A stretch of 64,000 bases of DNA from positions 23,341,501 through 23,405,500 of the forward strand of contig NC_091665.1 in NCBI RefSeq assembly GCF_042453785.1. Direction: 5' to 3'. Each line of letters opens with the position of its first letter. The stretch's first letter is position 1. Under the pieces are notes generated by a model that ran no database searches, was not told the origin of the DNA, and saw only the letters and a list, made by a program, of their open reading frames with translations. The stretch comes from Malus domestica (taxonomy: Eukaryota; Streptophyta; Magnoliopsida; Rosales; Rosaceae). This document shows positions 4,692-51,362 of this stretch, piece after piece. Position numbers and translations under genes: made by a program.

Positions 4692-7600
4692 ATGAAATAT
4701 ATGAGTGATCAGTATTCCAACTTGTCCTTTGTTGTCAACTTGTTGCATATCAAGAGTACTGGTACTATGAGCAACAAAGCTTTTGGTGCATTGCTAAAAT
4801 TGTTGAATGATGCCTTTCCTTTCTGTGAAAAGTTACCTACAAGCAACGATGGTGCAAAGAAAATTGTTGCAGAATTAGGTCTTCATTATGAAAAGATCGA
4901 TGCATGCAAGAATGATTGCATTATTTATTATATGGAGCATGCAAATGCAACGCAATGTCCTACATGTAAGCTTTCGAGGTGGAGAACACAAGAAAATGGT
5001 AACAAAAAGAAAGGTAAAAAGGTTCCCTGGAAGATTCTGAGATATTTTCCACTCACGTCAAGGCTTCAGAGATTGTATATGTCATCAAAGACAGCTGCAG
5101 ATATGAGATGGCATTCTAAAGATCGTGTGAAAGATGGTGTATTGAGACATCCAGCAGATTCTGAGCAGTGGAAATCTTTCGATCAAATTCATGAGTCATT
5201 TGGTATTGAACCTCGAAATGTACGACTTGGTTTGGCAACAGATGGATTTAACCCTTTTGGGAAGATGATTCTTCGCCATAGTACTTGGCCAGTTGTCCTA
5301 TTCCCATACAATCTTCCTCCGTGGATGTGTATGAAGGAGCCTTATACTTTCATGTCCTTACTTATACCTGGACTAACAAGTCCAGGTAATGACATAGATG
5401 TAAATTTGAGGCCATTGATTGATGAGTTGCAAACACTATGGGAAAATGGTGTGGAAACGTATAATATATCTACAAGGCAAAATTTTCAAATGAAAGCTGC
5501 ACTTATGTGGACTATCAATGATTATCCGGCATATGCTTACATGTCAGGTTGGAGCACTCAAGGAAAATTGGCATGCCCATATTGTGCCTCTAAGACTTCA
5601 CATCGCAGGTTATCTGATGGGTCAAAAATGTGTTATATGGGTCATAGACGATTTTTACCGTCTAACCACTCATGGCGCAAGCAAAAATGTAAGTTCGACA
5701 ATACAAGAGAGAAAACGGTTGCACCCAGTAGACCATCTGGTGATGATGTTATACAAGAACTGGATGAATTAAGAAAAATAACTCATGGCAAGCAGAACAA
5801 GCAGACAATAACTGGGTTTGGAAGGAGGCATAATTGGAAAAAACATTCTATATTTTTTCAATTACCTTATTGGAAAACACTTTTGGTGCGTCATAACTTA
5901 GATGTTATGCACATCGAGAAAAATGTATTTGAAAGTGTGATTGGCACAATGATGAGCATTGATGGTAAGACAAAGGATTCTTTAAATGCTCACCTTGATC
6001 TTCGTGAAATGGGTATAAGGGAAAGATATCATCCAAAAGTAAGAGAAGATGGTAAGCTTGATTTTCTCCCAGGTGACTATACATTGTCAGACGATGATAA
6101 TAAAGTTTTATGTAAATGGTTATCTGAATTACAAGTTCCAGATGGATATTCTGGAAATTTATCTCGATGTGTGGCTACTGGAGAACGTAGTATTTCTGGT
6201 ATGAAGACCCATGATTGTCACATTTTCTTGGAAAGATTACTTCCCTTTATAGCTCGAGAGTTATTGCCTAAAGACGTTTGTGAGCCCCTTATTCAGCTTT
6301 CTTATTTTTTCAAGGAATTGTGTGCTAAAGTGTTGAGAGAAGAAGATTTGAATGTTCTTGAAAATCAAATTGCTATTACATTATGCAAGATGGAACAAAT
6401 ATTCCCTCCTGCCTTCTTTGACATCATGATTCATCTAACTTGCCATTTAGCATGGGAGGCAAAAACGGTAGGTCCAGTGCAATATAAGTGGATGTATCCT
6501 GTAGAAAGGTATTGTCAATTTTCAAATATTATTATTACATAACATTTTATTTGATATTAAGTTATATTCTGTAATTTCAATTTTTACTATTTGGTTAGGT
6601 ATTTGCATAAACTAAAAGGTTATGTTCGTAATAAGGCTCGTCCAGAAGGATCTATTGCGGAAGGCTACTTGGGAGATGAATGCATAACATTTTGCTCTCT
6701 TTATTTGCATTGAGTTGAAACTAAGTTTAATCAAAGGGATAGAAATGATGATGGAGGTCAATCGTTATCTAATACATCTCGATTACCTATTTTTTCAACA
6801 CCAGGTAAATCTTTTGGGAAAGGTGTACTTGAATCCTATGCATATCAAACTCCTTGAGGCTGCCAAGTTTTATGTCCTACAAAATTGTGATGAATGTTTA
6901 CCTTTTGTTCAGTAAGAAATCTCTCATTACCATACGAACTTTCAACATTCGATCTTTTACTACTTATTTTTAGTATTACAATATTTTAATATATTAATTT
7001 AACTAACTCCTTGTTATATGTGCAGAGAACATAAGAATATTCTAATGCATTCTGGTGTTAGAAATGTGGAGGAGTCACATAGGCTTCAATTTTCAAATTG
7101 GTTTCATAAGAGGGAATGTATACTATATTATGTGAAAACTGTTGATTATTAGATATATTGTTTCTACAATATTTTTCTTTCTATATATGCAGATCAAACA
7201 ACTATACTATGGTAACAAAGTTGATAAGCAAATGCTTTCATTGGCTCTCGGTCCGGAAAGGCGAGTAAAATATTACCCTGGTTACTATATGAGTGGGTTT
7301 CGATTTCATACATTGCAACGTGATGAGAATAAAAAAAACACAAAATTGTGGAGTTATAGTTAAGGGGGAGAATCAGATTGATAGTGTGCCTTGGTATGGA
7401 GTATTAAAAGACGTGGTTGAGCTTCGTTACACAGAAGGCAATAGAGTTGTATTGTTCAATTGTGAGTGGTATGACATTGTGTGAAAAGGAACAAGTTATA
7501 AGATAGATCGTTACAGAATAATTAGTATTAATACAACTCGCAAGTTGAATACTAAAGAGCCATTTGTGCTGGCAAACCAAGCAACCCAAGCTTTTTATGT

Positions 7601-22289: not shown

Positions 22290-23805
22290 ATGGGGAGTGA
22301 ACATGTTGTTCAAGGAGGTTTCCCAATGAAGGCGAACGCCGGAAATGCCACGATTCTCGCACTCGGCAAGGCTTTCCCTCACCAGCTTGTCATGCAGGAT
22401 TTTCTGGTTGATGGGTATTTCAAAGATACCAACAGTGATGATCCACAGCTTAAGCAGAAGCTGGCTCGACTCTGTAAGTCCGTCAAACTTCTCTCCTCTT
22501 TTTTTCAAATATCAACATTGACACTAATAGTAATGCAAACCCTACACAAAAGACCCCAATTTGGGGATCATAAGAAGTTACTACGCGTATAGACTCTGCA
22601 TGTGAACCATGCGAAAAGAAATGTTCTCTTGCCAGACTTTTCACTTGTACCATTAACTAATCAGGTGATTTTTTGGTTTAAATTTGTAAGTCCGAGTAAC
22701 AATCTGACAACATAACATACCAAATATCTTGTAGGAAAATATGACAGTGTTTTGTTTAAAAGGATAGTGATATCGTATTGTTTTAGTAACTCTTCAATGG
22801 CATTTCACAGGCAAAACAACAACAGTCAAAACTAGGTATGTGGTCATGTCAGAAGAGATTCTGGAAAAGTATCCAGAGCTTACAACTGAGGGCACACCAA
22901 CTATAAAGCAAAGGCTACACATTTGCAATGAAGCTGTAACAAAGATGGCAATTGAAGCTTCACAAGCTTGCATCACGAAATGGGGGAGACCTACTTCAGA
23001 TATAACCCACTTAGTCTATGTCTCGTCCAGTGAAGCTCGCCTCCCGGGTGGTGACCTTTACCTAGCGAAAGGGCTTGGACTCAGTCCCCAGACTAAAAGG
23101 GTCATGCTCTACTTCTCGGGCTGCTCGGGCGGTGTGGCTGGCGTTCGTGTTGCCAAAGACATTGCCGAGAACAATCCAGGAAGTAGAGTCCTGCTCGCTA
23201 CTTCTGAAACCACTATCATTGGGTACAAACCACCAAGTGCAAACAGACCATATGATCTTGTTGGTGTTGCACTTTTTGGGGATGGTGCTGGAGCCATGAT
23301 GATTGGCTCAGACCCCGAATTGGTCTCTGAAAACCCGCTGTTCGAACTTCACACAGCCTTACAAGAGTTCCTGCCTGGTACTGAGAAGACCATTGATGGA
23401 AGGGTCACAGAAGAAGGGATCAGCTTCAAGCTGGAAAGAGAGCTGCCTCAAATAATTGAAGATCACATTGAAGGATTCTGTGGGAGGCTGATGGGAGTTG
23501 TTGGATACGATAACAAGGAGTACAACAAGATGTTTTGGGCTGTCCATCCAGGAGGTCCGGCAATCTTGAACCGAATGGAGAAGCGTCTTGATTTGTCGCC
23601 AGAGAAGCTGAACGCGAGCAGACGAGCTCTGGCGGATTATGGCAACGCTAGCAGTAACACCATAGTGTATGTTCTGGAGTACATCATTGAAGAGAGCAAG
23701 AAGATGAAGAAGGAAGGGGAAGGAGATGGCGGATGGGGAATGATCCTGGCTTTTGGACCTGGAGTTACTTTTGAGGGAATTTTAGCAAGGAACCTTGCTG
23801 TCTAA
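22290..23805 (+). CDS. LAP5: Type III polyketide synthase of the LAP5/PKSB group (sporopollenin biosynthesis)
   Basis: The CDS joins 22290-22473 and 22811-23805 (GT-AG intron, TGC Cys codon split), giving 392 residues, normal for chalcone-synthase-fold enzymes. The single intron in a Cys codon near residue 62 is the family's usual position. The catalytic triad is visible: Cys in YFSGCSGGVAG, His in WAVHPGGPAIL, Asn in YGNASSN; the C-terminal GFGPG-type loop reads AFGPGVTFEG. The N-terminus (NATILALGKAFPHQLVMQ) and SSSEARLPGGDLYLAKGLGL match the anther-specific PKSB/LAP5 branch, not chalcone synthase. These ER-associated tapetal enzymes condense fatty acyl-CoA with malonyl-CoA to alkyl pyrones for pollen-wall sporopollenin. 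The frame is intact. The group assignment rests on remembered similarity to At4g34850. Confidence 0.93.
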
Positions 23806-25582: not shown

Positions 25583-28500
25583 GTGATCTCTAAGAATCTT
25601 ACTGCCATGCTTGGAAAATTTGCAGGCTTCTTGAATGAGACCACAACCCAAGACAATGTTTCATGTATTATCTCTGCCCTCTCCACTGCTCTCAATGAAA
25701 TTACGCATGATTGTTGGATCATAGACTCAGGTGCCACATATCATATAACAAATAAGTCCTCTTACTTAGATAAGTTTCAAAATATGCATGAGTCTTCACT
25801 TGTGTCTGTAGCAAATGGGAAAGGAGAACCTATTATGGGAAAAGGTAAACTTAAACTGTTAAGTGATGAGATTGAGTCAACAGCCTTGTATGTGCTTTCA
25901 TTTCCCTTCCAGCTTTTGTCCATAGGAAAACTCACAAACACACTAAATTGCCTTGCCATATTCTCTCCTCACAATGTTTTATTTCAGGATCGAGTCACCC
26001 AGAAGAAGATTGGTGAAGGGTTTCTATTGAATGGACTCTACTATCTTTCAAAGAAGCTCAAGCCTGTTAAGCATCCTTTTGCTAACCTAAGTCTTCCTCA
26101 AGAGTACCAACTTTGGCACCTTCGATTGGCCCATCCCTCAGAACCTGTGATGAACAAACTATTTCCAAATTTTTGTAAAGCCACACATGAATGTGAAGTC
26201 TGTCAAATATCAAAAGCTACTAGGCTTCCTTTTGTTTCTTCCAAGTCTAGAACCAGTAAACTGTTTGAGGTTGTTCATTCAGATATTTGGGGTCCTTCCC
26301 GTGTAGAATCATTTAATGGATATAAATATTATGCCACCTTTATTGATGACTATTCTTGTTGCACTTGGATTTTACAGTCAAATAATGGCACTGAGTATAC
26401 ATCCAACAATATGTCTAATTATTTGAGCAATCATGGGATTTTACATCACACCAGCTATGTTGGTACACCACAACAGAATGGTGTAGCCGAGAGAAAAAAT
26501 CGTGACTTATTAGAGAAATCCAAATCTCTTATGCTTCAAATGCATGTTCCTAGAAAGTTTTGGTCTCAGGCTCTCCTCACTGCAGCCTACATCATCAACA
26601 GGTTACCTACACGTGTATTGAATTCAAAATCACCTGATGAAGTAATGAAGGGAAGAACTATTGACATCTCACACCTGAGAACTTTTGGATGCACATGTTA
26701 TGTCCATATTCAAGCTGCACATCGAGACAAGCTCGATCCTAGAGCTGTCAAGAGTGCCTTCATGGGATACTCGAGCACTCAAAAAGGATACAAATATTAC
26801 AATCCTTTTAATGGAAAGATTGGTATCTCAAGGGATGTTTGATTTGATGAGAATGCTCCATTCTTTCACAAAAATAACAGTGAAGACCTCAGGGGGAGAA
26901 CCTACTGGACATTTTTCCTCTGCCCACTCCAGCAAATCTACATGAATTCAATGTTTATCTCGACCACCACTCAGAACAACACGATGATGAGGAAACATCT
27001 CCTGATCAAGGAAGCTCAGGCACTACTCATCAACCTGTCTTGGCACCATGAAGAAACCCTACTCGTGACAGGCATCCTCCTCTAAGGCTACAAGAGTATG
27101 TTACGTACACGACAAGACATCCCATCTCCAAAGCCTTAACCTATCAAAAACTGTCACCATCCCATGCAGCCTTTCTACATCAGTTGTCCACTAGTGATGA
27201 ACCAAGAAATTTTAATGAAGCTGCTCACATTCCAGTATGGCAGAAAGCTATGAGCTTCAAGCACTGAACAACAACCAAACATGGAGTGTGGTTGATCTTC
27301 CAAAAGGAAAAAGGGCAGTAGGGAGTAGGTGGATATACAAGACCAAGTTTCATTCAAATGGCAATATTGAAAGACATAAGGCTCGTTTAGTAGCCCGTGG
27401 CTTTACTCAAACTTATGGCATTGACTACAAGGAGACATTTGCTCATGTAGCCAAAATGAGTATTGTACAAGTGTTGTTATCTGTGGCAGTCAATCTCGAT
27501 TTGTCCGTATTTCAAATGGATGTGAAGAATGCATTTCTTCATGGTGACCTCAAAGAGGACATGTACATGAAGCTTCCTCCCGGACATCCACAAGATCATG
27601 AAACTAACAAAGTTTGCAAGCTCCATAAGGCCATATATGTACTGAAGCAATCTCCCCGAGCATGGTACTCGAAGTTAAGTTCAGTCCTTGAAGCTACAGG
27701 ATTCACAAGGAGCCACTAATTCCTCATTATTTGTTTGCACTGGTATAAGTAGCAAACTAGTTGTTCTTATATATGTTGATGATCTTATTATAACAGGTGA
27801 TAACATAGAAGAAATCAATGCCCTCAAATCCTCTCTTCATTAACAATTTGCCATTAAGGATTTGGGAATCTTAAAGTACTCTCTTGGCATTGAAATGGCT
27901 ACTTCCTCCAAGGGTTTGTTCTTAAATCAAAGGAGGTATGTTCTTGATCTATTGGATGAAGCTGGCATGTTGAATTGCAAGCCCGCTTCTACTCCTCTGG
28001 TGAGTAGACTTCAAGTAGATGCACCCAATGAACCATTACCAAACCCTAGGGTTTATCAACGTGTGGTAGGAAAACTAATCTACCTCACTATCACCAGACC
28101 TGATATTGCTTATTCTGTAAGTTTTGTCAGTCAATTTATGCACTCTCCCTCGATGATTCACTGGGAGAGTGTCAAAAGGATACTCAGATACTTGAAGGGA
28201 TCCATTGGCAAAGGCTTACTCATGCAAAAACATGGTTCAAATCATATCATGGCATACACTGATGCTGACTGGGTGGGTAATGCCCTCGATCGCAAGTCTA
28301 CCACTGGTTTCTGTACTTTTGTTGGTGGCAATCTTGTGACATGGAAAAGTAAAAAACAAACCGTGGTTGCAAGATCAAGTGTTGAGGCTGAATATAGAGC
28401 CATGGCAGCCACGGCTTGTGAATTAATTTGGTTAAAAATTCTCCTAACGGATCTTGGTTGCGTCAACAATGAACATATGTCCTTGTTTTGTGACAACCAA

Positions 28501-33772: not shown

Positions 33773-36700
33773 TTAGCAAGTCCACGAATTTGATCTCCTC
33801 ATTGCTGGCTTCATCTGTTTGTCATCCTCGAGCGCTATCATCCCCAAATGAGATGGGTCTTCCAACATCATCTTCGCTACCAAGTACCCCGCAACTGACC
33901 AGGTCTGGAATTTACGGGCTTGCTTCCCAACATAACGACCAAGTTTCCCATCGTAGTACTCAGGCCAGTTGTCTTTCAGCAACCTGCTCTCGGCAAGTTC
34001 AATGGCGCGTCTAGCTATCTGGGGCCTCCCAGTCTTGATGGATGCAGCAGTGAGAAGCCATAAGAGCACTGTACCGAACACAATGGCATGTTACTTGGCA
34101 GGAAAATTAAGATGGCACCAAATATAACTTATCATTACCGCATCATTTAATTATGGGGGTGATAAGTATAGCAGGTGTGTCTGTATATAGAGTAATCACC
34201 CTTTAAGCACAGAAAACAACTACCCTTTTTATCTTAATCCATCGCTAATAACTCATAATCAAAGGAAGGGGGAAGGACGATGGGGAGGAGGGTAGGCGTT
34301 TTTCATTACCACTCTATTATTAAGACCTATTGGAGGGTTTTTGATAAAAAAATCAGCATTAACGCTATGACTTTGTGCAAGGGAGAGTATAGTGTGAAAG
34401 CATACCTGGCCAAGATCCCCCATTGTGGTAGCTCCATCTAGTATTTTTCGGGTCGCAGCCTGTTACAATCTTCCATTCATGATTTTCTATTGCTGGATAA
34501 CAGACCTTTAGTGGCATTTCTCCTGCCAATTCCTCCCATCGTGATTCTATTAGATCCATTATTGCCATAGATTGTTCAGGGGTTGCCAAGGACGAAAGAA
34601 TCGCTACACAATTACCCAAGCAAAACCAACGGAAATCCATTCTGGCAGGACTGACATTCCCTATAAAGTAACCACCACGAGTTGGCATAAAGTCAAAAAC
34701 CCAGTCCGGAAGAGAATCTGGTATCACATTGAACTTGTTGACTGCTGTATGCGAATATTCTTCAGTTTTATAACGATATATGTCATTTAACTGCTTAAAG
34801 TCTAGCCAAAAGTAACTTCTCATGTGATAGCTCAAGGCATGAAGGCGTTTTGATATGCGCTCAATAAACTCCTTCCCCTCATCATCGTGCTTAAGAAGAA
34901 GCAAAGCACATCTTAAAGCCATGAAGAAGAGAGCCTGAATTTCGATGGGATACCCGTAAACACCCTTGAAACACATAACCAATACAGAAGTGAGTTGAAA
35001 GACTTGAAAAGATAGGCAACACATTATCTAAATCTAAATGGAAAAAAAATATGTGCCTCAGAACATAAACGGCAAACAACTCGTAGTGATAAATGATAAA
35101 GATCAAGAAAGATCAAGAAATACCCCTTTATACAAGAAATTGTAAACCAAATAGATTTTATTTATTAAATTTCTGTAGCAATTTCGTTGAGATTTATGCT
35201 CAAAATCTGATGGGCAGATAAATGATTCTCAAAGGCTAAGTGCACCAAGAATTGCTAGGGTATTAGTTGCGTGAATATGCGGGGGCTAGCATGAGCTGCA
35301 TGGCAACTAAGTTACTTAGCTGACAACCCTTTACAAGACACCTAATAGACAATATAAAATGCTGCAGTCAGCTCATGAGCAAGAAAGCAATAACTGGTAG
35401 TTTTTTATTTGTTTTGGAAGGCAAGAGAACATAAACTCGGGTTAGAAAGAGAATTACTCATGAAAGGATGATTTGAATTTACTTTAAAGAATGTTATCAA
35501 CTTTACTTACAAACTCCGAAACTATTAACTTATGCATTTGCTAATATTTCAAGGGCTTGACTTACCATTCATGATATCAGACATATATGGCATATTCTAT
35601 ATATACCAGATGATAAATACAGGACTCAACACGATTATGAAAAACATACCATTCTACGATCAATCATGCAGCATCCATCAGCACAAAGAAGGGTTGGAAA
35701 TGTATCAAACCCCTCCGATAGGCATAAACTTAGAATAAGCCGCATACCCTTCTGGCATTCAGGCAGTTCAGCCAATGAAGAGTCTCCAGTGGATTTTGTG
35801 TATGCTCGAAGCAATATGATCCACCAAAATCCAGAATCAACAGGAGCAACTCTTCCTATCGCACTCTCACCAAAATCTGCTATTAAAGTCTCACTATTCC
35901 GGACAGGATCATGGAGTACTTTGAAACTAGCTGGCATTACTCCTTCTCCTAGATGAAACCTATCAATCTTTTTCTCCCACGACTGAAGACGAAGAGTCTT
36001 CAAGATAAAATTTTTAACTATTTCTGGTTCACCATTCATGAGAAAAGCCAATCCGCTGGGGACGAAGTCTCGAACAAACACCTTCACAGATCGATAAGAA
36101 GATCAAATAAGAACAAAATTTGTGCTCACCAACTTCATGTATTGGAAAGTCTGCCTAGAACTAGCCTGAGTTGAAGAAAAGCACAAAGGGATAGCTGAAT
36201 CTATACCCTTTAGTTCAACAAAAATAAAAGTATGTCCTGCATAAAGCATCTCAAGGGCAACACATAGACAGCACACATCCACAGTTTGAAACATATTATT
36301 GAAACCGTAAAATCAGAATGTTAATATGGAGGTTTAGGATTCAGATTAACAAACGGAAATATGCTAATAATAAAGTTTTGGTTCCCTCTACTATTAGATT
36401 CATTACAGAGTCAATGTTCCAACCATTATGATGCAGTTAATGAATAATTGAATGTAGCTACTAATTTAACAAAAACCAATAATAGCCATATCTAATCGGA
36501 AGAACAAGGATTAAGGGTCTCTACCTGGTCATAGTTAAGATTTTCTTCTGTGGTATCTGAGGCAGCAATTGTCCCAACTGGCTGACCACGGAAAAACACC
36601 AATGAACGCCTCAAAGTAGCCCAAGCTTCACCAATCATTGGATGTGGCTCAAAGCCCATCTGGGACCTAGGGGTACCCATGAGTGACATTCTACTACACG

Positions 36701-36956
36701 GCGAAAATACGTACTCAGGAGGTTCAAAAAATCTGGAAGTGTTCTCAGCATTTCTCGATGAGGGATGTGGGGACACCGCAACAGATAGTTCACTGAGTGA
36801 CCTCTCATCAAATGATCTTTTTCTCTCCATATTCAGAAGGCTTGGTTTGTCTAGTAACTTTGAAAAATCAATTTCATCAATTTCTGCCACAGTACATAGT
36901 GAATCAACATGTCTCATATCTCCATTGTGGGACAAATCCGCATTGGGCGCTGACAT
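33773..36956 (-). CDS. Cytosolic-type alkaline/neutral invertase (GH100)
   Basis: Four coding exons on the minus strand: 36525-36956, 35650-36081, 34406-34964 and 33773-34068. All are GT-AG and give 572 residues without a stop. Motifs: the phospho-site-like [170 protein letters not shown]. It hydrolyses sucrose to glucose and fructose at near-neutral pH. The short N-terminus has no obvious transit peptide, so it is probably cytosolic (beta clade). The start [13 protein letters not shown] and TVAEIDE point to the A/N-InvB type (At4g34860) as I remember it. Confidence 0.94.
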
Positions 36957-41165: not shown

Positions 41166-41170
41166 GAGTT

Positions 41171-42081
41171 TGTAGACATCGAAATTTCGGTAAATAAATG
41201 TTGACCGATAAATCAAAGTTTCAACGCTCATGTATTACATAAATTTTACACGTAGCATGCAACTCAACGAAAATTGAAATGAGTTGGAAAAGTCGTCAAA
41301 TAGGACACGTGTCAACACCTGGCAGAAACAACTTATTTCATCTGGAATATTATATTCAAAACTAGGCCTTGGAAAATTCTATAAATAGAAGGCTAATTCA
41401 TTCATTTAAGGGGGGACCAATTCATATTACACCTTGAAGCTCTGAAGCTCTGAAACTCCGAAGCTCTCAAGCATCCAGGTTCCCCGAAGAATCAAGAAAG
41501 CTCTCTTCGTTCTTCGTTCTTCGTCCATCGCTCTTTCAAGATCAAGCCCCGACGGCCCTTGAAGAAAGCACCATCATTCATCATCTGTTCATCCAAGATC
41601 AAGCCCCAACAGCCCTTTGGATCAACAATCATCCACCTTCAAGATCAAGCCCCGACGGCCCTTGAAGAAAGTGTTCTTCGTCCATCGTTCTTCCAAGATC
41701 AAGCCCCAACGGCCCTTTGGATCAACAAACGTCGACAAATCCACACATCCAACCGTTCTTCAAGATTAAGCCCAAAAGCCCTTGAAGATCTGTTCATCAC
41801 TGTTTCTTCAAGATCAAGCCCAAAAGCCCTTGAAGATCCGCTCAAATCCACCTTCAAAGATCAAGCCCACGACCCTTTGAAGAAACTTCCAACTGTTCAT
41901 CCAAGATCAAGCCTCGACGGCTCTTGGATCAACGAAACACCCACCAATCAACACCTTACGGAGATCGAATCAGATGATAAATTTGAGAGAGATTGTAACC
42001 CAAAAAAACCATCAAAATACAAATATTTGTTTGTGCACGTCGTTCTTGTCTCTTTCGTTTCAGGAATTTTCCGTGTTCACA
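41171..42081 (+). repeat. 5' LTR of the TR-GAG-like element
   Basis: 911 bp, TG...CA. A TATAAATAG box at about 41380 suits the start of the element RNA. 41535-41930 contains eight roughly 30-bp inverted-repeat units (see the array features). It differs from the 3' LTR at three positions I could see: ATCTGTT/ATCCGTT near 41583, GGCTCTTGG/GGCCCTTGG near 41921, and AGATGATAA/AGAGGATAA near 41974. Confidence 0.95.
41535..41930 (+). repeat. Array of hairpin-forming repeats in the 5' LTR
   Basis: Eight units of the form TTCAAGATCAAGCCC, centre, GCCCTTGAAGAA begin at about 41538, 41592, 41638, 41691, 41758, 41808, 41851 and 41900. Arms pair: TTCAAG with CTTGAA, TCCAAG with CTTGGA, TTCAAAG with CTTTGAA. 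Units alternate between the TTCAAG and TCCAAG arm types. The same array is in the 3' LTR at about 50816-51211. Its role is unknown. Confidence 0.8.
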
Positions 42082-42084
42082 AAT

Positions 42085-42102
42085 TGGCACGCCCAGTGGG
42101 AC
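42085..42102 (+). other. Primer-binding site of the TR-GAG-like element
   Basis: TGGCACGCCCAGTGGGAC starts three bases after the LTR end. The leading TGG suits pairing with a tRNA CCA end. I do not name the tRNA. Confidence 0.75.
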
Positions 42103-42160
42103 AATCTCTACCTCTCATCTCTTTCTCCGTTCAAGAAATTCGAGCACACTTCCAAAATTA

Positions 42161-44110
42161 ATGGCTTCAAGGAAGGCTCAAACTGTTCCCGCAACTGGCG
42201 CAAAGAACAAGAGTGCCCTCGTCGCAAGAGGTGTCACTTTAGGCATCACGACTCGAAGCATGGCAAGAGCTACTTCTGCCGCCTCTTTCACCTCTGCATC
42301 AACTCTGTCAAGGGAACAAAAGCACCCAAGGCACAAGCCTTTGATCACCTTAGCCTCACTAAAGGCACCAAGGGGGGAAAGCCCAAGGAAATACTCTGAA
42401 TCCATGCTCTCCGATGCCGATTCAAGCGACAGTTCAGCCATGCAAGTCATGACCATTGGAGCAACTTCAATCGATGAGCAGCTGGCTCAAATGAATGAAG
42501 CAATCGCAAGGCTAACCCGAACTGTGGAAGAAAAAGACTTGCAAATTGCAGCACTAGTCAACCGACTGGAGGCGCAGGACGGCGATAAACCCGACCCAGA
42601 GGATGATCCACTAAAGGGAGGAGCTGGCGGAGACGAAGAACCCCCGGTGAAGAAAATCGATGGGAAGCCGGAGCCAGACCAAGCAGCGGCACTCATGGGA
42701 TCTCTTTCTATCCAGCAGCTGCAGGAGATGATCACCAACACCATCAAGGCACAGTACGAAGGGAGCTCACATACCTCTTTGTTCTACTCGAAGCCCTATT
42801 CCAAGAAGATTGATGCCCTAAGGATGCCAAGGGGTTATCAACCACCAAAGTTCATGCAGTTTGATGGAAAAGGAAACCCAAAGCAGCACGTTGCACATTT
42901 CGTCGAAACTTGCAACAACGCAGGGACAGAGAGAGACTACCTCGCCAAGCAGTTTGTGCGCTCGCTGAAAGGAAATGCCTTTGAGTGGTACACGGACCTA
43001 GAGCCTGAGTCCATCAACAGCTGGGAGCAATTAGAGCGGGAATTCCTCAACCGCTTCTATAGCACCCGCCGCACTGTGAGCATGCTAGAGCTGACGAGCA
43101 CGAAGCAATGGAAGGAAGAACCAGTCATGGACTACATCAACCGATGGCGTAATCTAAGCCTCGACTGTAAGGACAGACTCTCCGAGATTTCTTCAATCGA
43201 GATGTGTATTCAAGGCATGCAATGGGGTTTGCAATACATCCTTCAAGGCATTAAACCGCGGACCTTCGAGGAATTGGCTACTCGCGCCCATGACATGGAG
43301 TTGAGCATCGCCCATCATGGGAAGAAAGAACTGATCGCCGACTACAAGAACGACAAAGTTCTTGGGACAAAGGGGGAAAAGGCTGCATGGAAACCCACCA
43401 AGGAAGCGATGGCGGTCAACACAGCTCCCGTCAAAATATCCACACGAGGCAAGGCGATTCAAACCGAAGCTTTTCGTGATCAAGAGATGCGTAGACGCAC
43501 TTTGAAGGAGCTTGAGGAGAAGACTTATCCATTCCCCGACTCTGATGTGGTTGCCATGCTAGATGACCTGTTGGACAAGAAGGTGATCAGTTTGCCTGAG
43601 TGCAGACGGCCGGAAGAGATGAATCGTACCGACAGTCCAAGATACTGTAAATTCCACCGCTTCATCAGTCATCCGACAGAAAAATGTTTCGTGCTGAAAG
43701 ATCTCATCATGAAGCTGGCTCAGAAAGGAATCATCGAGCTAGATCTTGACGAAGTGGCGAAGTCAAACTATACCACCTTCACTTCTGGCTCTTCCGACTC
43801 AAAGTTTTCACCTCAACCGTTGGGGGCATCCTCCAAGACAAGCAAAATTGAAGGATGGACTCAAGTCACTCCTAAGAAATTGCACAAGAAGCATACGTCT
43901 CCTCCACAAGTCCGCCAATCGGAAAGGGGGCAAAGCAGCTCTTGTCAACCTTCAAAGCAACGTGAACGTGTTGAAGATGATGAAATTGCGACACAAAAAT
44001 CGTCTGTTGCCATCACGATGCGCGACTTCTTGCCCGAAGACTTCTTCAATAACGCGGTCAAAGCTCCTTGCTATGAAAATTGTGAGGAACGCCTCTCCCG
44101 GATTGCTTGA
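42161..44110 (+). CDS. Intact Ty3-type gag protein
   Basis: 649 codons from ATG (42161), 80 bp after the LTR. The N-terminus is basic and Ser/Thr-rich. A short coiled coil follows at about 105-140 (LAQMNEAIARLTRTVEEKDL), then an acidic linker. The gag/capsid domain lies at about 220-330 (GYQPPKFMQFDGKGNPKQHV, NAFEWYTDLEPESINSWEQL, EFLNRFYSTRRTVSMLEL). A Tat-lineage-type YCKFHRF..HPTEKCFVLKDLI motif near residue 510 stands in for a normal zinc knuckle. It would assemble the particle that packages element RNA. The unbroken frame with no pol downstream is the reason for the TR-GAG label. The stop is followed by tandem repeats. Confidence 0.93.
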   Translation: MASRKAQTVPATGAKNKSALVARGVTLGITTRSMARATSAASFTSASTLSREQKHPRHKPLITLASLKAPRGESPRKYSESMLSDADSSDSSAMQVMTIGATSIDEQLAQMNEAIARLTRTVEEKDLQIAALVNRLEAQDGDKPDPEDDPLKGGAGGDEEPPVKKIDGKPEPDQAAALMGSLSIQQLQEMITNTIKAQYEGSSHTSLFYSKPYSKKIDALRMPRGYQPPKFMQFDGKGNPKQHVAHFVETCNNAGTERDYLAKQFVRSLKGNAFEWYTDLEPESINSWEQLEREFLNRFYSTRRTVSMLELTSTKQWKEEPVMDYINRWRNLSLDCKDRLSEISSIEMCIQGMQWGLQYILQGIKPRTFEELATRAHDMELSIAHHGKKELIADYKNDKVLGTKGEKAAWKPTKEAMAVNTAPVKISTRGKAIQTEAFRDQEMRRRTLKELEEKTYPFPDSDVVAMLDDLLDKKVISLPECRRPEEMNRTDSPRYCKFHRFISHPTEKCFVLKDLIMKLAQKGIIELDLDEVAKSNYTTFTSGSSDSKFSPQPLGASSKTSKIEGWTQVTPKKLHKKHTSPPQVRQSERGQSSSCQPSKQRERVEDDEIATQKSSVAITMRDFLPEDFFNNAVKAPCYENCEERLSRIA

Positions 44111-44130
44111 CAAAATTCACAAATTCTCCT

Positions 44131-44352
44131 CGCCCGCACGAGTCTAAACTGCATGGCACAAAGCTCATGGTCTGCACGAGCATAAAAGGCAACACCAACG
44201 CTCCTGGTCTGCACGAGCATAAAAGGCAACACCAACGCTCGTGGTCTGCACGAGCATAAAAGGCGACACCAACGCTCCTTGCCTGCACGAGCTAAAACTG
44301 CAACACGGCACCAACGCTCCTTGCCTGCACGAGTTAAAACTGCAAACGGCAC
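44131..44352 (+). repeat. 37-bp tandem repeat after gag
   Basis: TCTGCACGAGCATAAAAGGC and the following AACACCAACGCTCC recur at 44171, 44208 and 44245, then 44282 and 44324 with more change (the last step is 42 bp), and a degenerate copy near 44131. There are about six units. 44353-44524 is spacer with GGAGGGGTACGTAGGCAGC, a phrase I associate with this retroelement type. Confidence 0.85.
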
Positions 44353-44524
44353 AAAAATGAAAATACCAAGAAAAAAATGTATTTGAACTACGTTACGACT
44401 TGATCTCTTCTTTGGAGGGGTACGTAGGCAGCTCGAATATTCAAAATTTGAGTTCAGTCACACCAAAATAAGGAATAAAGATTTTATTAAAAGTTTTAAT
44501 GCTATTACAATATTTGTTTGTCCA

Positions 44525-44558
44525 AAAAAAAAAATGAGATGTATGTTTTATGTATTTA

Positions 44559-44590
<32 letters not shown>

Positions 44591-44613
44591 ATAACATAAA
44601 AAAAAATAAAAAA
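44525..44613 (+). repeat. A-rich tract upstream of the cargo frame
   Basis: Several A-runs of 8-12 bases separated by G or short words. It marks the left side of the host-derived segment, which begins in the next 150 bp. Confidence 0.7.
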
Positions 44614-44757
44614 TTTGGGCCGCCCCAACCTTGTCCCCATCAAAGGGAATCACAGCCCATGCCTCCCTTCATTTCACAGGCCCATATTGACAACAAGCCC
44701 GTAAAAGGAACATCAGAAATGGAGCTGTGAGAAAGCATCATCAACCAAAACAACTTC

Positions 44758-46683
44758 ATGTTGGGGCTGACAAAGCAACTGCATCAAAACGAAGGTAAAC
44801 AATCAAAGCCGCGTGTACCCGCCGTTGTCCATCCACGTGGTGCTGAGCTTGATCGCGCCCGAGTCAAAAGGTCCGACCCAGGACCAGCTGCTCTCGCTCT
44901 ATCTGTAGCTCCGGAGTACCACCCCACCTGGGCTGAGTTCCAAGATCCGATTGCCTACATTTTCAAGATCGAGAAGGAGGCTTCCCAGTTTGGAATCTGC
45001 AAAATCGTGCCGCCGGTGTCGCCTTCCGCGAAGAAGACCGCAATTGGGAACTTCAACCGGTCTCTGGCTGCTCGGGCGGGGGTTTCGGGTTCTTTGTGCC
45101 CGACATCTGAGCCCACATTCACTACCCGGCAGCAGCAGATCGGGTTCTGCCCTCGGAGGCCACTGCCGGAGCCCTCAGCCACGCGTTATACGACGCCGTT
45201 TGGGGACATCAATGTACGGTCTCCGTCGTTGACTCCACTATCTTCACCGGAGAAAGCTGCTGACGAATACCCATCTGCATCGGACCAAAATGGAGGGTCT
45301 CCGTCGATGTCCTCGTTATCTTCGTCGCCGGAGAAAGGATTAGAGAAGAACCCACATGCATCATCGAAAGTTTCGGTGGTTTCGGGTCAGAGTTCTCCTA
45401 TTTCTTCACCGGAATTAAAATTCGGAAACAACACAGATGGGTTAACAAAAGTTACGGCCTTTCCGGATCGAAATGATCAGTCCCCTTCCCCATTATCACA
45501 TTGTTCATCGTCACCGGAGAGAGAATCAGACGGTTCTGATTCAAAAGCCAAGTCGTTTTCACCTTCTATGTCACCACTGAGAGGTTTGGAGAACTCAGCT
45601 ACCTCGCCAAGAATTTCAAATGCTTCGGATCGAGCATCTATTCATTTGGATCCCAAAATGCAGTCTCTTTCATCATCTTCATCGTCTTCGTTGTCAAACT
45701 CGCCGGAGAGAGGGTTTAGTGTTGATTTAAAGCAGCCTCTTTCGGTTCCGCCGCCACCGCCTTCACCTCATTCCCCACCAACCAAACAGAGAGAAAGCGG
45801 TGCAGGAGAGACCAGACCAGATCGGATGGCGGACGGAACTGCGCACTCGCGGTATGTGAAGCTGACAAAGGATCAAGCGCCGGCCGAGGACATTAAGCCC
45901 GGCGAGCTCAATCAGCTCATCGAAGTTCCCCAGTTGAATGTTCACAGGTGTCATGAATGCGGACAGCCTTTACCCGAGAGCTATCAGCCCCCTGGAGATG
46001 AGCCTTGGACAACCGGAATTTTTGGTTGTGCTGAAGATAGAGAAAGTTGCTTGATAGGGTTATTTTGTCCATGTGTTCTGTTTGGGCGCAATGTTGAGAG
46101 CCTAAGAGACGATACCCCTTGGAACAGACCATGCATTTGTCATGCCGTTTGTATTGAAGGTGGTATGGCTCTGGCAGCATTAACTACAATCTTCCATGAC
46201 ATTGACCCAAGGACTTCATTTCTTATTTGCGAGGGTCTGTTATTTTCTTGGTGGATGTGTGGGGTATATACAGGTCTTGTCCGGCAATCCTTGCAGAAGA
46301 AGTATCATCTACAGAACTCGTCGTGTGACCCATGCTTGACACACTGCTGCTTGCACTGGTGCGCCTTGTGCCAAGAGCACAGGGAGATGAAGGGACGCCT
46401 CTCGGACAATGTTGTGATGCCAATGACCGTCGTCAACCCACCCCAAGTTCAACAGATGAAGTCTGCTGACGACAACCAGGACTCCGCTTCACCACCGACA
46501 AACACCATCCAAGCTTACCTACCGCTCTTCCGCCCTACGACACGTCGCTCAAGCGACTCGAGCACCTCGAAATCGCACCATAGCTGTCTCCCTGCGACTC
46601 AAAGCTGCTCCTTTCCTTCTATCCACCAGCACAACGGCAGCAGCAATTTGAGAGCAGCCCGGACGAGAAGCCGCAGATTCTGA
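44758..46683 (+). CDS. Chimeric host-derived frame: REF6-like JmjN + formin-like Ser/Pro region + PLAC8 protein
   Basis: One open frame of 641 codons from ATG. Residues about 46-137 match the N-terminal JmjN region of REF6-type histone demethylases (APEYHPTWAEFQDPIAYI, KIEKEASQFGICKIVPP, FTTRQQQIGFCPRR); the catalytic JmjC domain is absent. Residues about 150-345 are Ser/Pro-rich with repeated SPE(K/R) boxes, ATSPRISNASDR and a PPPPPSPHSPP run, like the FH1-side region of class I formins. Residue 357 (ATG at 45826) starts an almost complete PLAC8/cell-number-regulator-6-like protein: HSRYVKLTKDQAP, RCHECGQPLPESYQPP, CLIGLFCPCVLFGRNVE, THCCLHWCALCQEHREMKG. There are no introns. The tail after SASPPTNT is unrelated. 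PLAC8 proteins sit in membranes and affect cell number or metal transport; whether this fusion is made is unknown. Confidence 0.88.
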   Translation: MLGLTKQLHQNEGKQSKPRVPAVVHPRGAELDRARVKRSDPGPAALALSVAPEYHPTWAEFQDPIAYIFKIEKEASQFGICKIVPPVSPSAKKTAIGNFNRSLAARAGVSGSLCPTSEPTFTTRQQQIGFCPRRPLPEPSATRYTTPFGDINVRSPSLTPLSSPEKAADEYPSASDQNGGSPSMSSLSSSPEKGLEKNPHASSKVSVVSGQSSPISSPELKFGNNTDGLTKVTAFPDRNDQSPSPLSHCSSSPERESDGSDSKAKSFSPSMSPLRGLENSATSPRISNASDRASIHLDPKMQSLSSSSSSSLSNSPERGFSVDLKQPLSVPPPPPSPHSPPTKQRESGAGETRPDRMADGTAHSRYVKLTKDQAPAEDIKPGELNQLIEVPQLNVHRCHECGQPLPESYQPPGDEPWTTGIFGCAEDRESCLIGLFCPCVLFGRNVESLRDDTPWNRPCICHAVCIEGGMALAALTTIFHDIDPRTSFLICEGLLFSWWMCGVYTGLVRQSLQKKYHLQNSSCDPCLTHCCLHWCALCQEHREMKGRLSDNVVMPMTVVNPPQVQQMKSADDNQDSASPPTNTIQAYLPLFRPTTRRSSDSSTSKSHHSCLPATQSCSFPSIHQHNGSSNLRAARTRSRRF

Positions 46684-47443
46684 ACCCGCAGCTTTTCATG
46701 AGCAACCAGACTCAGCAATCCTTGTTCTCCGCCGTCATCTTCACCGGTCTTTGTGCCGCTCTCTGCTGCCTCACTCCACCAAACCTGGCCTGCTGCACAT
46801 GGTGTGCACACCCAGAGCAAGTGGACCTTCACGTCAGCCCTTATCCTCCGCTCCTCCTCTGTGCAAACCTGCGTCTCCAAACTTACGACCTCGTCGTCGT
46901 TCTGAACCATGGTAGAGCAGCAGCATCCGAGATAGAACATCTTCAACGTGGCACTCATCTGCTCTCTCGTCGCCGGCATTGGAGGACAGGCTCTGTCTCC
47001 GCCACCTCTGACTCTCTCTACTTGCAGCAATGACTTGGCGACTAGATCTCTAGGTGGGTCTTCTGATGGCTGCAGGTTCTCATGTTCTCCTTCCATAGAT
47101 TTGCAGTCTTGTGGAGTCTGCTCAAAGCTTTTAACAGAGAGATCTTCATGGTGCAAGCGGTGGTGATGCAGTACATCATCTACATCATCTAGGCACCCTC
47201 TCCGTTGCGCAACACCTAAGCCCAGCAAAGAACCCAGCTCCAAAGCATTGGCACCGTCTGTCCACACCTACCTCCTCCGTGCACCTCCATCTCCTCCGCC
47301 TCTTGCCTCGCAGCTGCCACCAACTTCAAAGACCGCTGTCAAACGACTAGCCGGCCGAGAAGCTCTTCCTCAAACTCCAGCTCTCCGTCCGTCTTCGTCC
47401 GCTCCCTGCAAATTCCTCTACCCACCACCCAAATTTATACACC
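46684..47443 (+). other. GC-rich cargo of unrecognised origin
   Basis: The 760 bp after the chimeric frame has coding-like composition (many CTC/TCC/CGC words) and open frames on both strands, for example plus 46698-47033 (AALCCLTPPNLACCTWCAHP) and minus 46599-47267 (222 codons). I recognise no family in any frame. It ends in a 29-base A-run, as would a copied mRNA 3' end. It could be a fourth captured gene or the UTR of the third. Confidence 0.4.

Positions 47444-47472
<29 letters not shown>
47444..47472 (+). repeat. Poly(A) run at the end of the cargo
   Basis: 29 uninterrupted A bases directly after ATTTATACACC. A second A-run of 26 lies at 47776-47801. Between them a phrase GGTGGTGCATCTGGCACCA/GGTATGGTGCATCAGGCACC is repeated (about 47475 and 47570). 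The first run could be the tail of a reverse-transcribed host mRNA. Confidence 0.75.
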
Positions 47473-47476
<4 letters not shown>

Positions 47477-47829
47477 GGTGGTGCATCTGGCACCACGTGA
47501 AAAAAGGGAATGGTGCATGGGCACCAACTAAAGAAGCAGAAAATAATACAAAAAAAAAAAAAAAAGGGGGTATGGTGCATCAGGCACCAGAAAAAGAAAA
47601 AAAATATATATATAAAACATAAAGGAAAATTTGGGGATAGTGGACGGCAAAGAGGTGTGGTGACATGTGTACATAATATATATATAGCAAAAAAAAATTT
47701 GCATTGAGAGAAATAAAGTCCATTTTTTATTTATTTTTCTGGAAATTTTGCATAAATTTGCATTATACATACCTTAAAAAAAAAAAAAAAAAAAAAAAAA
47801 ATTCAAATCAAATTTACAAGAGGGGATCT

Positions 47830-48498
47830 TCAAGGACGATCAGGTGCCGCCTCACCACTCGGCAGAGCTCCAGAAATGAGAGGCGCTGGAGGTTGACTGT
47901 TTGAAGCCTCACCACTCGGCGGAACTCCAGGAAGTAGAGGAGCCAAAGGTTGATCATTCGGAGCTTCACTACGCGGTACAACCCCAGAAGACGAAGGTAA
48001 ATGTTGTTGGAACAAACCCACAAACCTCCGATGATCAAGTAAAATCTGACCATCAGATTCCTGCATCTGGTCAATTTTCCTCTTCATGTTTGTGGCATAG
48101 TTGTGTGCGAGCTTGTGCAACTGTTTATTCTCATGCTTGAGCCCCCTAATATCCTGTTTGAGACTCATCACTTCAGCCGCCAACGATTCAACTTGACGGG
48201 TTCGAGCAAATAGGCGTTTGGCCATGTTGGACACAGAACCCGCACACTGCACACTAAGAGCCAAAGACTCCTTAACAGCCAACTCATCAGACCGCCTGGA
48301 AAGTAGTCTGTTATCTTTGGGAGTGACAAGGTTCCGGGCCACCACCGCAGCAGTCATATCATTCTTCATCACCGAATCCCCAACAGTAAGAGGACCAGTA
48401 GGGGATATGAAGGATGGGCGCCATATGTTATCTGGAGAAGACGGGACTACCTCTTCATCAAAGTTCAAATCAAAACGACGGTCAGAGGGTCCAGACAT
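47830..48498 (-). CDS. Antisense coiled-coil protein frame of the retroelement
   Basis: 222 codons from an ATG at 48498 on the minus strand. The start MSGPSDRRFDLNFDEE is followed by VPSSPDNIWRPSFISPTGPL, a helical part with heptad character at about residues 95-165 (RTRQVESLAAEVMSLKQDIR, LKHENKQLHKLAHNYATNMK) and a Pro-rich tail with near-repeats (GVPPSGEASNSQPPAPL, GALPSGEAAPDRP). Similar unnamed proteins are, as I recall, common in rosid retroelement regions. No enzyme motif is seen. It runs against gag and the cargo, so it would need its own promoter or one from the 3' LTR side. Confidence 0.65.
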   Translation of the reverse strand: MSGPSDRRFDLNFDEEVVPSSPDNIWRPSFISPTGPLTVGDSVMKNDMTAAVVARNLVTPKDNRLLSRRSDELAVKESLALSVQCAGSVSNMAKRLFARTRQVESLAAEVMSLKQDIRGLKHENKQLHKLAHNYATNMKRKIDQMQESDGQILLDHRRFVGLFQQHLPSSSGVVPRSEAPNDQPLAPLLPGVPPSGEASNSQPPAPLISGALPSGEAAPDRP

Positions 48499-48699
48499 TT
48501 TCAAAGGTGTTGAAGAAAGAAGAGGTCGGACAAATCAAGATCTTAGAAGTGCAAGAAGGGAGTTTTCACAAGCGAAAATTCAAGTGTGCTTTGAAACGAA
48601 CAGCGTGCCTCTATAAAAAAAATCAGCACTCGATGGGATTTCAGAGATCGAAGAGGCGAGCTCAGAATTCGAAGAGGCCATTCAAAAATCGAAGAGGCA

Positions 48700-49005
48700 A
48701 GCTCAGAAATCGGAGAAGCATCTTGCTTTTCCAGACGCGTCGGCACCCGTCACACGCAAACTCAGCTTTGCGAAAATCACGGGCAATTTGTCGAAGCACC
48801 GATCCCAGATATCGAAGAGGCGCCAATCTTTTTCAACCACGTCATCACCCATCACACGCAAACTCAGCTTTGCGGAAATCACGGGTAATTTGTCGAAGCG
48901 CCGATCCCAGTTATCGAAGAGGCGCAATCCTTTTTCAGCCGCGTCAACACCTGTCACATGCACACTCAGCTTGGCAAAAATCACGGGCAATTTGTCGAAG
49001 ATTTT
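48700..49005 (+). repeat. 102-bp tandem repeat, about three copies
   Basis: ATCACGGGCAATTTGTCGAAG recurs at 48776, 48878 and 48980, exactly 102 bp apart. Units also share AAACTCAGCTTTGCG and ATCGAAGAGGCG. Shorter GAAGAGGC-type repeats lead in from 48640. 49010-49885 that follows has no recognised gene; it includes GTATCTCATATCA repeated at about 49252 and 49287. Confidence 0.85.
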
Positions 49006-49889
49006 CGGTGAAGGAGAAAGCACGTGAAGTATACTGTTCAATCATCCAACGGTTGTCGACACGAGTGAAAGAATAGTACATCTACAGGTGTTAAAGAACT
49101 TCCTATAACTGTCCATCTTCACCCTCCATAGCAAGGCAGACATACAGAACCTTTCTTCATCTCTGAGAATGCCTTCCCAACGAAGCCTCTTGAGTTACCC
49201 AGTGTTCCTTATTCCTTGGGGTACCTCTGCAAGCCAATAACTCCAAAGCAAAAGTATCTCATATCACCAGGGTAGAAAGCAAGAGTATCTCATATCATGC
49301 GTTCTCCCTGTCCTTTCCTTTGTCCTTGTTCTTACCTACGAAGACAAGGATAAAGAAAACAATATGCCGGAACTTCCACTCAAACTCGGGTAAGGAACCG
49401 ACTGCTTGGAACCCTTCCCTGATTGCCTACCTAGCACTGCTCTCGAGTACTCGCCTTCCACTGCTGCTGTACTTTCAAAGAAGCTGCCACATCTGCCTGA
49501 AGAACAGATAAGGCAAGTGAAAATGATACCTTGCAGCATGTGGAGACAAGGTGCAGAAGGAACAAGCAGAGAAGAATGCGGTCTCCACGGTCAACTCAGC
49601 AGAAAGAGTCTGAGATGAAGAACTCGAGAAGATGTCGCATCTGCCTGAGGACAGTGAACTTGTTTTGACCCTCAAATTCTTGGGTCGACTTACTAGGCAT
49701 TGTGGGCTGCACGTGCCGATTCACCACCCTTAAATCAAATCCTTAAAGATCAAGTCACCAACTGGAAGAAGAACCCATCAATCTTGAAGATCATACCGTT
49801 GACCAAACTATTCAGGTGTGAATTAGAAAGATTGAACAAAGCAACAAGTCGTCACCTTCACCGCGTGCCTGCTTGCCATATGTTCGAGT

Positions 49890-50370
49890 CAACCTTCAAG
49901 AATCAAGCCTCAACGGCCCTTGAAGAAGCTTCCAGCCAAATTCAAAATCAAGCCTCGACGGCCCTGGAAGGAATCACAAGTCTGATTCAAGATCAAGTGT
50001 CTACCATCCTTGAATCAAAACCTAGTTCAAGAATAAGCTGTGGAAAATCAACAATTGGAGGAATTCAGAAAATCCTCCAACCCAGTTCAAGATCAAAGCT
50101 GTGGAAAGTCAACAAGCGCAACAAAATACGTGCCGATTCATCCACTACCAAAGCCAAAGATCATCTACCACATGAAGCTCCTTGTGGCCCAATTTCAACC
50201 TTCAAGATCAAGTCTCGACGACCCTTGAAGAAATTTCAAACAAAAGTTCAAGATCAAGCCTCGACGGCCCTTGAAGAAATTTCAAACAAAGTTCAAGATC
50301 AAGCCTCAAACGGCCCTTGAAGAAATCTCCAGCCCAATTCAAGATCAAGCCTCGACGGCCCTTGGATCGA
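49890..50370 (+). repeat. Array of hairpin-forming repeats next to the 3' LTR
   Basis: About nine copies of the TTCAAGATCAAGCC, centre, GGCCCTTGAAGAA unit seen in the LTRs, at about 49894, 49940, 49985, 50027, 50083, 50200, 50245, 50291 and 50336. Some are degenerate. One unit has ATTCAAG paired with CTTGAAT, again arm changes on both sides. Unlike the LTR array it is outside the LTR, so the unit has multiplied separately. Confidence 0.75.
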
Positions 50371-50437
50371 CATCTACAGTAAGGGACTTCAAAACGCATC
50401 TCTTACACGTGACAAGCACATGTATACGACGCGCCTT

Positions 50438-50451
50438 GAAGTGGGGGCATT
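50438..50451 (+). other. Polypurine tract of the TR-GAG-like element
   Basis: GAAGTGGGGGCATT directly before the 3' LTR start TGTAGACATC. Confidence 0.7.
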
Positions 50452-51362
50452 TGTAGACATCGAAATTTCGGTAAATAAATGTTGACCGATAAATCAAAGT
50501 TTCAACGCTCATGTATTACATAAATTTTACACGTAGCATGCAACTCAACGAAAATTGAAATGAGTTGGAAAAGTCGTCAAATAGGACACGTGTCAACACC
50601 TGGCAGAAACAACTTATTTCATCTGGAATATTATATTCAAAACTAGGCCTTGGAAAATTCTATAAATAGAAGGCTAATTCATTCATTTAAGGGGGGACCA
50701 ATTCATATTACACCTTGAAGCTCTGAAGCTCTGAAACTCCGAAGCTCTCAAGCATCCAGGTTCCCCGAAGAATCAAGAAAGCTCTCTTCGTTCTTCGTTC
50801 TTCGTCCATCGCTCTTTCAAGATCAAGCCCCGACGGCCCTTGAAGAAAGCACCATCATTCATCATCCGTTCATCCAAGATCAAGCCCCAACAGCCCTTTG
50901 GATCAACAATCATCCACCTTCAAGATCAAGCCCCGACGGCCCTTGAAGAAAGTGTTCTTCGTCCATCGTTCTTCCAAGATCAAGCCCCAACGGCCCTTTG
51001 GATCAACAAACGTCGACAAATCCACACATCCAACCGTTCTTCAAGATTAAGCCCAAAAGCCCTTGAAGATCTGTTCATCACTGTTTCTTCAAGATCAAGC
51101 CCAAAAGCCCTTGAAGATCCGCTCAAATCCACCTTCAAAGATCAAGCCCACGACCCTTTGAAGAAACTTCCAACTGTTCATCCAAGATCAAGCCTCGACG
51201 GCCCTTGGATCAACGAAACACCCACCAATCAACACCTTACGGAGATCGAATCAGAGGATAAATTTGAGAGAGATTGTAACCCAAAAAAACCATCAAAATA
51301 CAAATATTTGTTTGTGCACGTCGTTCTTGTCTCTTTCGTTTCAGGAATTTTCCGTGTTCACA
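50452..51362 (+). repeat. 3' LTR of the TR-GAG-like element
   Basis: 911 bp, the same as the 5' LTR except for three positions, and followed by the GAGTT duplication. It contains the same eight-unit hairpin array at about 50816-51211 and the TATAAATAG box at about 50661. Confidence 0.95.

Follow-up and report, generated by a model that had tools for sequence, protein, structure and literature searches.

Apple carries a family of LTR retrotransposons that, in our reading (to which we give a probability of roughly 0.8), recurrently captures spliced host mRNAs in one slot and exchanges them between members by copy-choice; the 641-codon fusion of host sequences found in one of its elements is most likely a passenger. 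That element lies in the window, the 64,000-nucleotide stretch of Malus domestica DNA that was analysed (NC_091665.1, 23,341,501 to 23,405,500), where it forms a 10.2-kb LTR retrotransposon at 41171-51362, called the C5 copy. An initial annotation of the window had described an uninterrupted frame inside an LTR element with an intact gag and no pol, and each part of this description was borne out (Table 1). None of the four ORFs of the element that were scanned with Pfam gave a pol family, and the ORF list contains no frame longer than 234 aa in 44111-50449 besides the fused ORF. The element is recently inserted, non-autonomous and gag-bearing, with no detected pol; the RT-RNaseH-integrase order of a relative described below suggests that it is of the gypsy/Ty3 type. 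The labels of the PBS-like and PPT-like stretches follow from general knowledge of such elements and are presumptive.

Table 1. Coordinates of the C5 element, its cargo and the domains found in related elements. Simple positions are those of the window.
Feature	Location	Strand	Details
5' LTR	41171..42081	+	911 bp, TG...CA; TSD GAGTT before it at 41166-41170
PBS-like stretch	42082..42102	+	adjoins 5' LTR; candidate by position
gag ORF	42161..44110	+	649 aa; Retrotrans_gag, E 1.1e-13 (Pfam)
Tandem-repeat spacer	44126..44465	+	left edge of cargo slot; sequence comparison
Serpin 5' coding fragment	44710..44895	+	85% to C8 serpin gene; Serpin domain verified in donor
Fused ORF	44758..46683	+	641 codons (650 stop to stop); ORF list and element comparison
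REF6-like JmjN piece	44899..45161	+	donor C14:25178103-25178371, 97%, native frame
Formin FH1-side piece	45162..45761	+	donor C10:25555048-25555812, native frame
PLAC8/CNR-like 5'UTR and CDS	45771..46493	+	ATG at 45827; donor C7:32415341-32417313
Piece common to CDK5RAP3-bearing element C6:7.81 Mb	46486..46643	+	97%
Piece common to element C12:2.79 Mb	46633..47275	+	93-98%
Antisense ORF	47830..48504	-	224 aa; only sub-threshold coiled-coil families in Pfam
Purine-rich, PPT-like stretch	50437..50451	+	just before 3' LTR
3' LTR	50452..51362	+	TSD GAGTT directly after
WRKY	C1:32.17 Mb insert		Pfam
PDDEXK_6	C10:2.54 Mb insert		Pfam
F-box and LRRNT_2	C13:25.63 Mb insert	antisense	Pfam
Glyco_transf_28	C12:29.23 Mb insert (L047)		Pfam
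Ig_N_CWD1 of glucan water dikinase	C3:23.98 Mb insert		Pfam
WWE_5	C15:12.0 Mb insert		Pfam
CDK5RAP3	C6:7.81 Mb, fetched for shared cargo		Pfam, E 2e-64
Serpin and NmrA	C7:11.23 Mb, fetched for shared cargo		Pfam
PLAC8	C13:30.84 Mb, fetched for shared cargo		Pfam

Other features of the element and its surroundings were recorded in passing. The LTR and the pre-LTR region (41535-41945 and 49890-50362) contain many short repeats around CAAGATCAAGCC. The antisense ORF, which has no match to Transposase_28 (TRP28, PF04195) at E up to 0.1, recurs in several of the sampled family elements (e.g. L042, L044 and L047), where Pfam likewise returned no family above cut-off. Elsewhere in the window are alkaline/neutral invertase exons (Glyco_hydro_100; 34365-36956, minus strand), upstream of the element, and, on the plus strand, a chalcone/stilbene synthase coding stretch (22840-23805), a retroelement pol piece that is probably copia-type (gag_pre-integrs, Pol_BBD and a retroviral SH3-like domain; 25583-26842) and a Transposase_21 (tnp2) ORF with DUF4218 that is probably CACTA-type (4692-6542).

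The fused frame was said to join REF6-like JmjN, formin-like and PLAC8 segments, and these identities held. Pfam placed JmjN at aa 52-85 (E 4.3e-15) and PLAC8 at aa 417-543 (E 7.1e-26), both above the curated cut-offs, and found no further family in the frame; the formin identity of the middle piece comes from a DNA match to a C10 gene with FH2 exons downstream of the matched part (E 9.2e-60), not from Pfam. A search of solved structures with the fused protein returned JmjN relatives and two chance-level matches. About 80% of the codons follow the native frame of JmjN, formin or PLAC8. The others are the first 47, partly in the serpin frame, the last 62, and 22 ahead of the PLAC8 ATG that correspond to the joint and 5'UTR. 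The fused protein has a JmjN without a JmjC and a formin part without an FH2.

We then searched the whole frame by BLAST against its own genome (651 Mb, 19 contigs; 56 matches listed), as the initial annotation had proposed, and recovered the donors together with three other LTR-to-LTR copies. The JmjN domain was verified in the C14 donor gene, and a likely homoeologue on C6 matches the piece at 91%. The formin piece aligns with its C10 donor in two BLAST pieces (88 and 94%), with 26-28 differences in 600 positions by global alignment, and lacks in-frame repeats of the donor totalling ∼165 bp; the C5 counterpart of the C10 gene is a poorer match. The PLAC8 piece matches its C7 donor in four blocks of 96-99%, and a tandem neighbour and a C1 gene are weaker matches in most of these blocks. 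We take donor pairs on 5/10, 6/14, 1/7 and 13/16 to be apple homoeologues, and the names CNR and REF6 are our interpretation of the sequence, not program assignments. The donors are unrelated, separate genes rather than parts of one normal host gene and, because they lie on C14, C10 and C7, the fusion goes beyond chance.

The PLAC8 piece runs from the 5'UTR to a point within the CDS, at 46493, ∼17 donor residues short, and three donor introns are exactly gone from it, with GT-AG borders read base by base. The piece therefore originates from a spliced mRNA, as the initial annotation had supposed. It has no captured 3' poly(A) tail, which internal template switching does not require. The JmjN and formin pieces are single-exon and uninformative on intron loss, and DNA-level capture is therefore possible for those two.

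The cargo has more parts than the three that were initially recognized: the three unrelated donors stand, but further pieces (serpin, GRAS and others) exist, and the serpin and GRAS pieces were missed, as was the family with different inserts at one site. The N-terminus of the fused ORF derives from a serpin 5' region, in which the serpin-like ATG at 44719 is followed three codons on by TGA and the frame slips near 44808; 44560-44909 is 89% identical to the element at C7:11.23 Mb. Towards the other end, 82 bp (46636-46717) are identical to a gene at C4:13.25 Mb in which the GRAS domain was verified, although the fused ORF reads them in a different frame. The PLAC8 piece and the piece starting at 46486 overlap by TCACC, and the words shared at two cargo junctions are TCACC and GGCAGCAG. 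The serpin-JmjN (J1) and formin-PLAC8 (J3) junctions each contain ∼10 nt of unexplained filler, and the JmjN-formin junction (J2) only two shared bases.

The fusion is carried by four separate LTR-to-LTR insertions, at C5, C7:12.34 Mb, C11:32.95 Mb and C16:5.23 Mb, with perfect 5-bp TSDs (GAGTT, ATAAC, GTTGC and CTAGG respectively). LTR length varies from 852 to 1086 bp across the four, and the LTR pairs differ at 3/911, 3/1086, 1/988 and 0/852 positions respectively. With the substitution rate of 1.3e-8 per site per year used in PMC5664825, the rough ages are 0.13, 0.11, 0.04 and 0 My, an ordering based on just 0 to 3 LTR differences. The fused frame is whole in two of the four, C5 and C7, and is therefore not broken in every other copy. 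In the C11 and C16 copies, a common 2-bp insertion within PLAC8 cuts the open frame to 563 codons, counted stop to stop, and the C16 copy lacks 46496-49716. Because these frame-broken copies have the fewest LTR differences, an intact frame seems not to be needed for mobility. Copies differ by 81 bp in the formin repeats, a length divisible by three, and the formin donors differ by comparable repeat units.

Substitutions within the frame were then compared. Between C5 and C7 there are two synonymous and six non-synonymous changes (dN/dS 0.94), and dN/dS was 0.49-1.20 over the five pairs of copies for which it was calculated, each pair showing 5 to 14 changes; these changes are consistent with an unconstrained element, in counts too few to speak against weak constraint. 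Element-versus-donor ratios were lower, at 0.33-0.99 for JmjN and 0.35-0.37 for formin, which we take to reflect constraint on the donor side, although constraint in the element may contribute. For the 5' portion of the frame, an apparent identity of only 95-96% of C5 to C11/C16 was discarded, as BLAST had aligned across the formin repeats; global alignment gives ∼99%.

Relatives of the element were collected by their LTRs (2594 first-look candidates, of which the best 40 were scored); since only the best candidates were scored in our searches, counts are lower bounds. From roughly 13 LTR pairs besides C5, eight elements (L041-L044 and L047-L050) entered the counts that follow, and a pol-bearing pair (L045) and a part of the C17:8.38 Mb element (L046) were left out. 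All eight carry, between the spacer and the 3' backbone, an insert of 1.5-2.4 kb that does not match the C5 element, and the eight inserts have only six pieces in common with one another, each 30-120 bp long (E up to 1e-8). The spacer itself is present in all family elements whose spacer was fetched, with 76% identity in the pol-bearing relative. A Pfam domain above cut-off was found in six of the eight inserts. The other two, C13:32.3 Mb scanned in six frames and C7:2.73 Mb scanned in one ORF, gave none. L049 was scanned in one ORF, whose Tubby-like look is our impression. Five further elements, at C6, C12:2.79 Mb, C15:28.7 Mb, C7:11.23 Mb and C13:30.84 Mb, were chosen for a match to the C5 cargo and are a biased sample; the cargo of those at C12 and C15 had no Pfam match above cut-off, the GRAS piece of the former being recognized by DNA alone. 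Three candidate domains were below cut-off and were discarded: Flavodoxin (L041, antisense), AAA_lid_7 (L027) and PARP (L050). In the six-frame scans, CDK5RAP3, Serpin, NmrA, WRKY, PDDEXK_6 and WWE_5 are in sense orientation, and two domains, F-box and LRRNT_2, both in one element, are antisense. In L047-L049, chosen sense frames were scanned, and these elements are hence uninformative on orientation.

Donors of the sibling inserts point in the same direction as the PLAC8 piece. The PDDEXK_6 piece matches three blocks in C16:17623469-17624493 (98, 99 and 95%). Another piece from this insert matches two C1 blocks 71 bp apart. The WRKY piece matches three blocks in C13:4172213-4175100 (95, 99 and 95%), two of which directly adjoin in the element. 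In L047, at C12:29.23 Mb, a MurG-like piece corresponds to two blocks of C6:33909113-33909586; one intron is removed, and its GT-AG borders were read. Altogether five donor loci, including that of PLAC8, match in blocks that lie apart in the donor but adjoin in the element, the borders having been read base by base in two of them, and no retained donor intron was noticed in captured pieces among the donors examined. A CDK5RAP3 donor was not among the best candidates scored. L047 also contains a 403-codon frame in which a MurG-like glycosyltransferase N-terminus is followed by a piece from C7:21.70 Mb, TROL-like in our interpretation, both in native frame. Because the MurG and TROL pieces share one frame, an in-frame fusion of host sequences occurs in two sampled elements.

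Identity among the copies is mosaic and shows that cargo has moved between LTR variants. When identity of C5 to other copies was measured in 300-bp windows, C5 and C7 were 99-100% identical in mid gag and most of the cargo, as against 83-97% in the LTRs and 5' gag; with C11/C16 the gag pattern was partly reversed, at 98-99% in 42371-42970 and 92% in 42971-43270. The cargo therefore sits in different LTR and gag backgrounds. The C13:30.84 Mb element has PLAC8 and its downstream joint but other upstream sequence, so that pieces join and part within the family. The pol-bearing pair (C10:29546001-29551500; LTR pair C10:29.54-29.56 Mb) has LTRs and a spacer related to those of the family and contains RVT_1, RNase H and rve in open blocks split by stop codons; pol-bearing relatives therefore exist.

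We propose that the family repeatedly captures fragments of host transcripts in the slot bounded by the post-gag spacer on one side and the antisense ORF on the other. Reverse transcription would take place in particles with pol supplied in trans, presumably by a pol-bearing relative, and the enzyme would switch from element RNA to a co-packaged spliced host mRNA and back. It would also switch between element RNAs, and these switches together would add new pieces and reshuffle old ones. The 641-codon frame would be one product of this, with three host frames staying in phase by chance. The fusion would then be mobile as cargo, and probably not kept for a protein function. Some observations are against this reading. 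The filler at J1 and J3, the two shared bases at J2 and the two inserts of eight with no identified host domain count against it, and the antisense F-box and LRRNT_2 domains in one element do not fit simple mRNA switching.

The initial annotation had held that retention of the frame across two junctions gives coding potential; our results do not support it as a sign of function. The fusion might be a new functional protein of the Bs1 kind, translated and with a selected activity drawn from JmjN, a formin linker and PLAC8. We consider this unlikely. The long frame is whole in two of the LTR-to-LTR copies, all three donors are in native frame, the 81-bp difference is divisible by three, and element-to-donor dN/dS was below 1 in the comparisons made. 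Against this, we estimate the chance of two junctions both staying in frame at ∼1 in 9, such repeat-unit differences are also seen in the formin donors, and the copies with the fewest LTR differences, two of the three others, have the frame broken within PLAC8. Copy-to-copy dN/dS ratios, and the absence of JmjC and FH2, are likewise contrary to it. We conclude that the fused protein is most likely a passenger, without a maintained protein function.

That the host pieces were fused first in DNA, by another transposon or by illegitimate recombination, and the finished block then taken up, is still harder to credit. Although the JmjN and formin pieces have no introns to test, and filler at J1 and J3 would fit end joining, the PLAC8 piece is spliced, and among the 56 matches listed the three pieces are joined only at C5, C7, C11 and C16; the different upstream sequence next to PLAC8 at C13:30.84 Mb, with pieces joining and parting inside the family, also speaks against a finished block. 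Read-through transduction, in which an element near host genes co-transcribed its flanks and later internalised them, is named for plant elements such as Bs1 in a review (PMC13317346), but here we regard it as very improbable: the donors are on at least three chromosomes, the pieces lie between parts of the element backbone, the PLAC8 introns are gone, and sequential entry of many unlinked genes into one slot by this route is unlikely. Recurrent capture of spliced mRNAs with copy-choice exchange is the reading we prefer.

Gene capture by LTR elements has mostly been described as single cases, such as Bs1, or in genome surveys. A young family for which donors are matched, insertions dated and spliced borders identified, and in which cargo is exchanged, would allow the capture rate, the switch sites and the rate of in-frame fusion to be measured, and such measurements bear on how retroelements create new genes. 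We put at about even odds the broader proposal that the family acts as a standing engine of exon shuffling at the RNA level, in which a fixed slot, repeated spliced capture, copy-choice exchange and occasional in-frame fusions maintain a running supply of mobile chimeric frames. The JmjN-formin-PLAC8 fusion itself matters less, because nothing here indicates its use.

Pack-MULEs and Pack-TYPE DNA transposons are likewise families that collect host gene fragments; unlike them, the C5 family is RNA-based, with intron-free cargo, LTRs and a 5-bp TSD. The closest likeness is to maize Bs1, which reportedly has gag without pol. Bs1 is an LTR element with three host gene fragments and one chimeric frame, according to PMC13317346, and the comparison drawn in the initial annotation is apt: the C5 element has an LTR pair, gag, no detected pol and several unrelated host fragments in a single frame. 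It differs in having other donors, more pieces and siblings with other inserts in the slot.

In LTR retroduplication, as described in PMC5664825 and PMC3726574, spliced host mRNA is likewise found in mostly non-autonomous LTR elements. The pepper study, on NLRs, also came across single elements that contained two or three genes, 1398 to 3898 genes were found inside LTR elements in the plant genomes of that study, and a captured 3' poly(A) tail is listed there as a retrogene feature (PMC5664825); genes captured by LTR elements were reported in rice and sorghum (PMC3726574). Those are genome surveys, whereas here short fragments of multiple genes turn over in the slot of one gag-keeping family. 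Retand/Tat elements, as described in PMC11963269 and PMC7264820, share with the C5 element a long 3' region, an antisense ORF, tandem repeats and gag, but the C5 antisense ORF has no TRP28 match and pol is absent; two clusters in PMC11963269 are also without TRP28, and ORFs gained by transduction are described in one or a few copies (PMC7264820, PMC11963269). Recombination among ONSEN family members during transposition bursts, reported for Arabidopsis, resembles the exchange proposed here, but the abstract is without host cargo (PMC5668417). HODOR (KX869746.1) is an abundant apple repeat, for which PMC8558331 gives a length of 9,716 nt. In a literature search that left most subscription journals outside, we recognized no paper describing the C5 family as gene-capturing, and found no family whose LTR-picked members all differ in the insert that they carry at one site. 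Gene capture is thus known in kind from Bs1, and its recurrence and modularity in one slot are apparently new.
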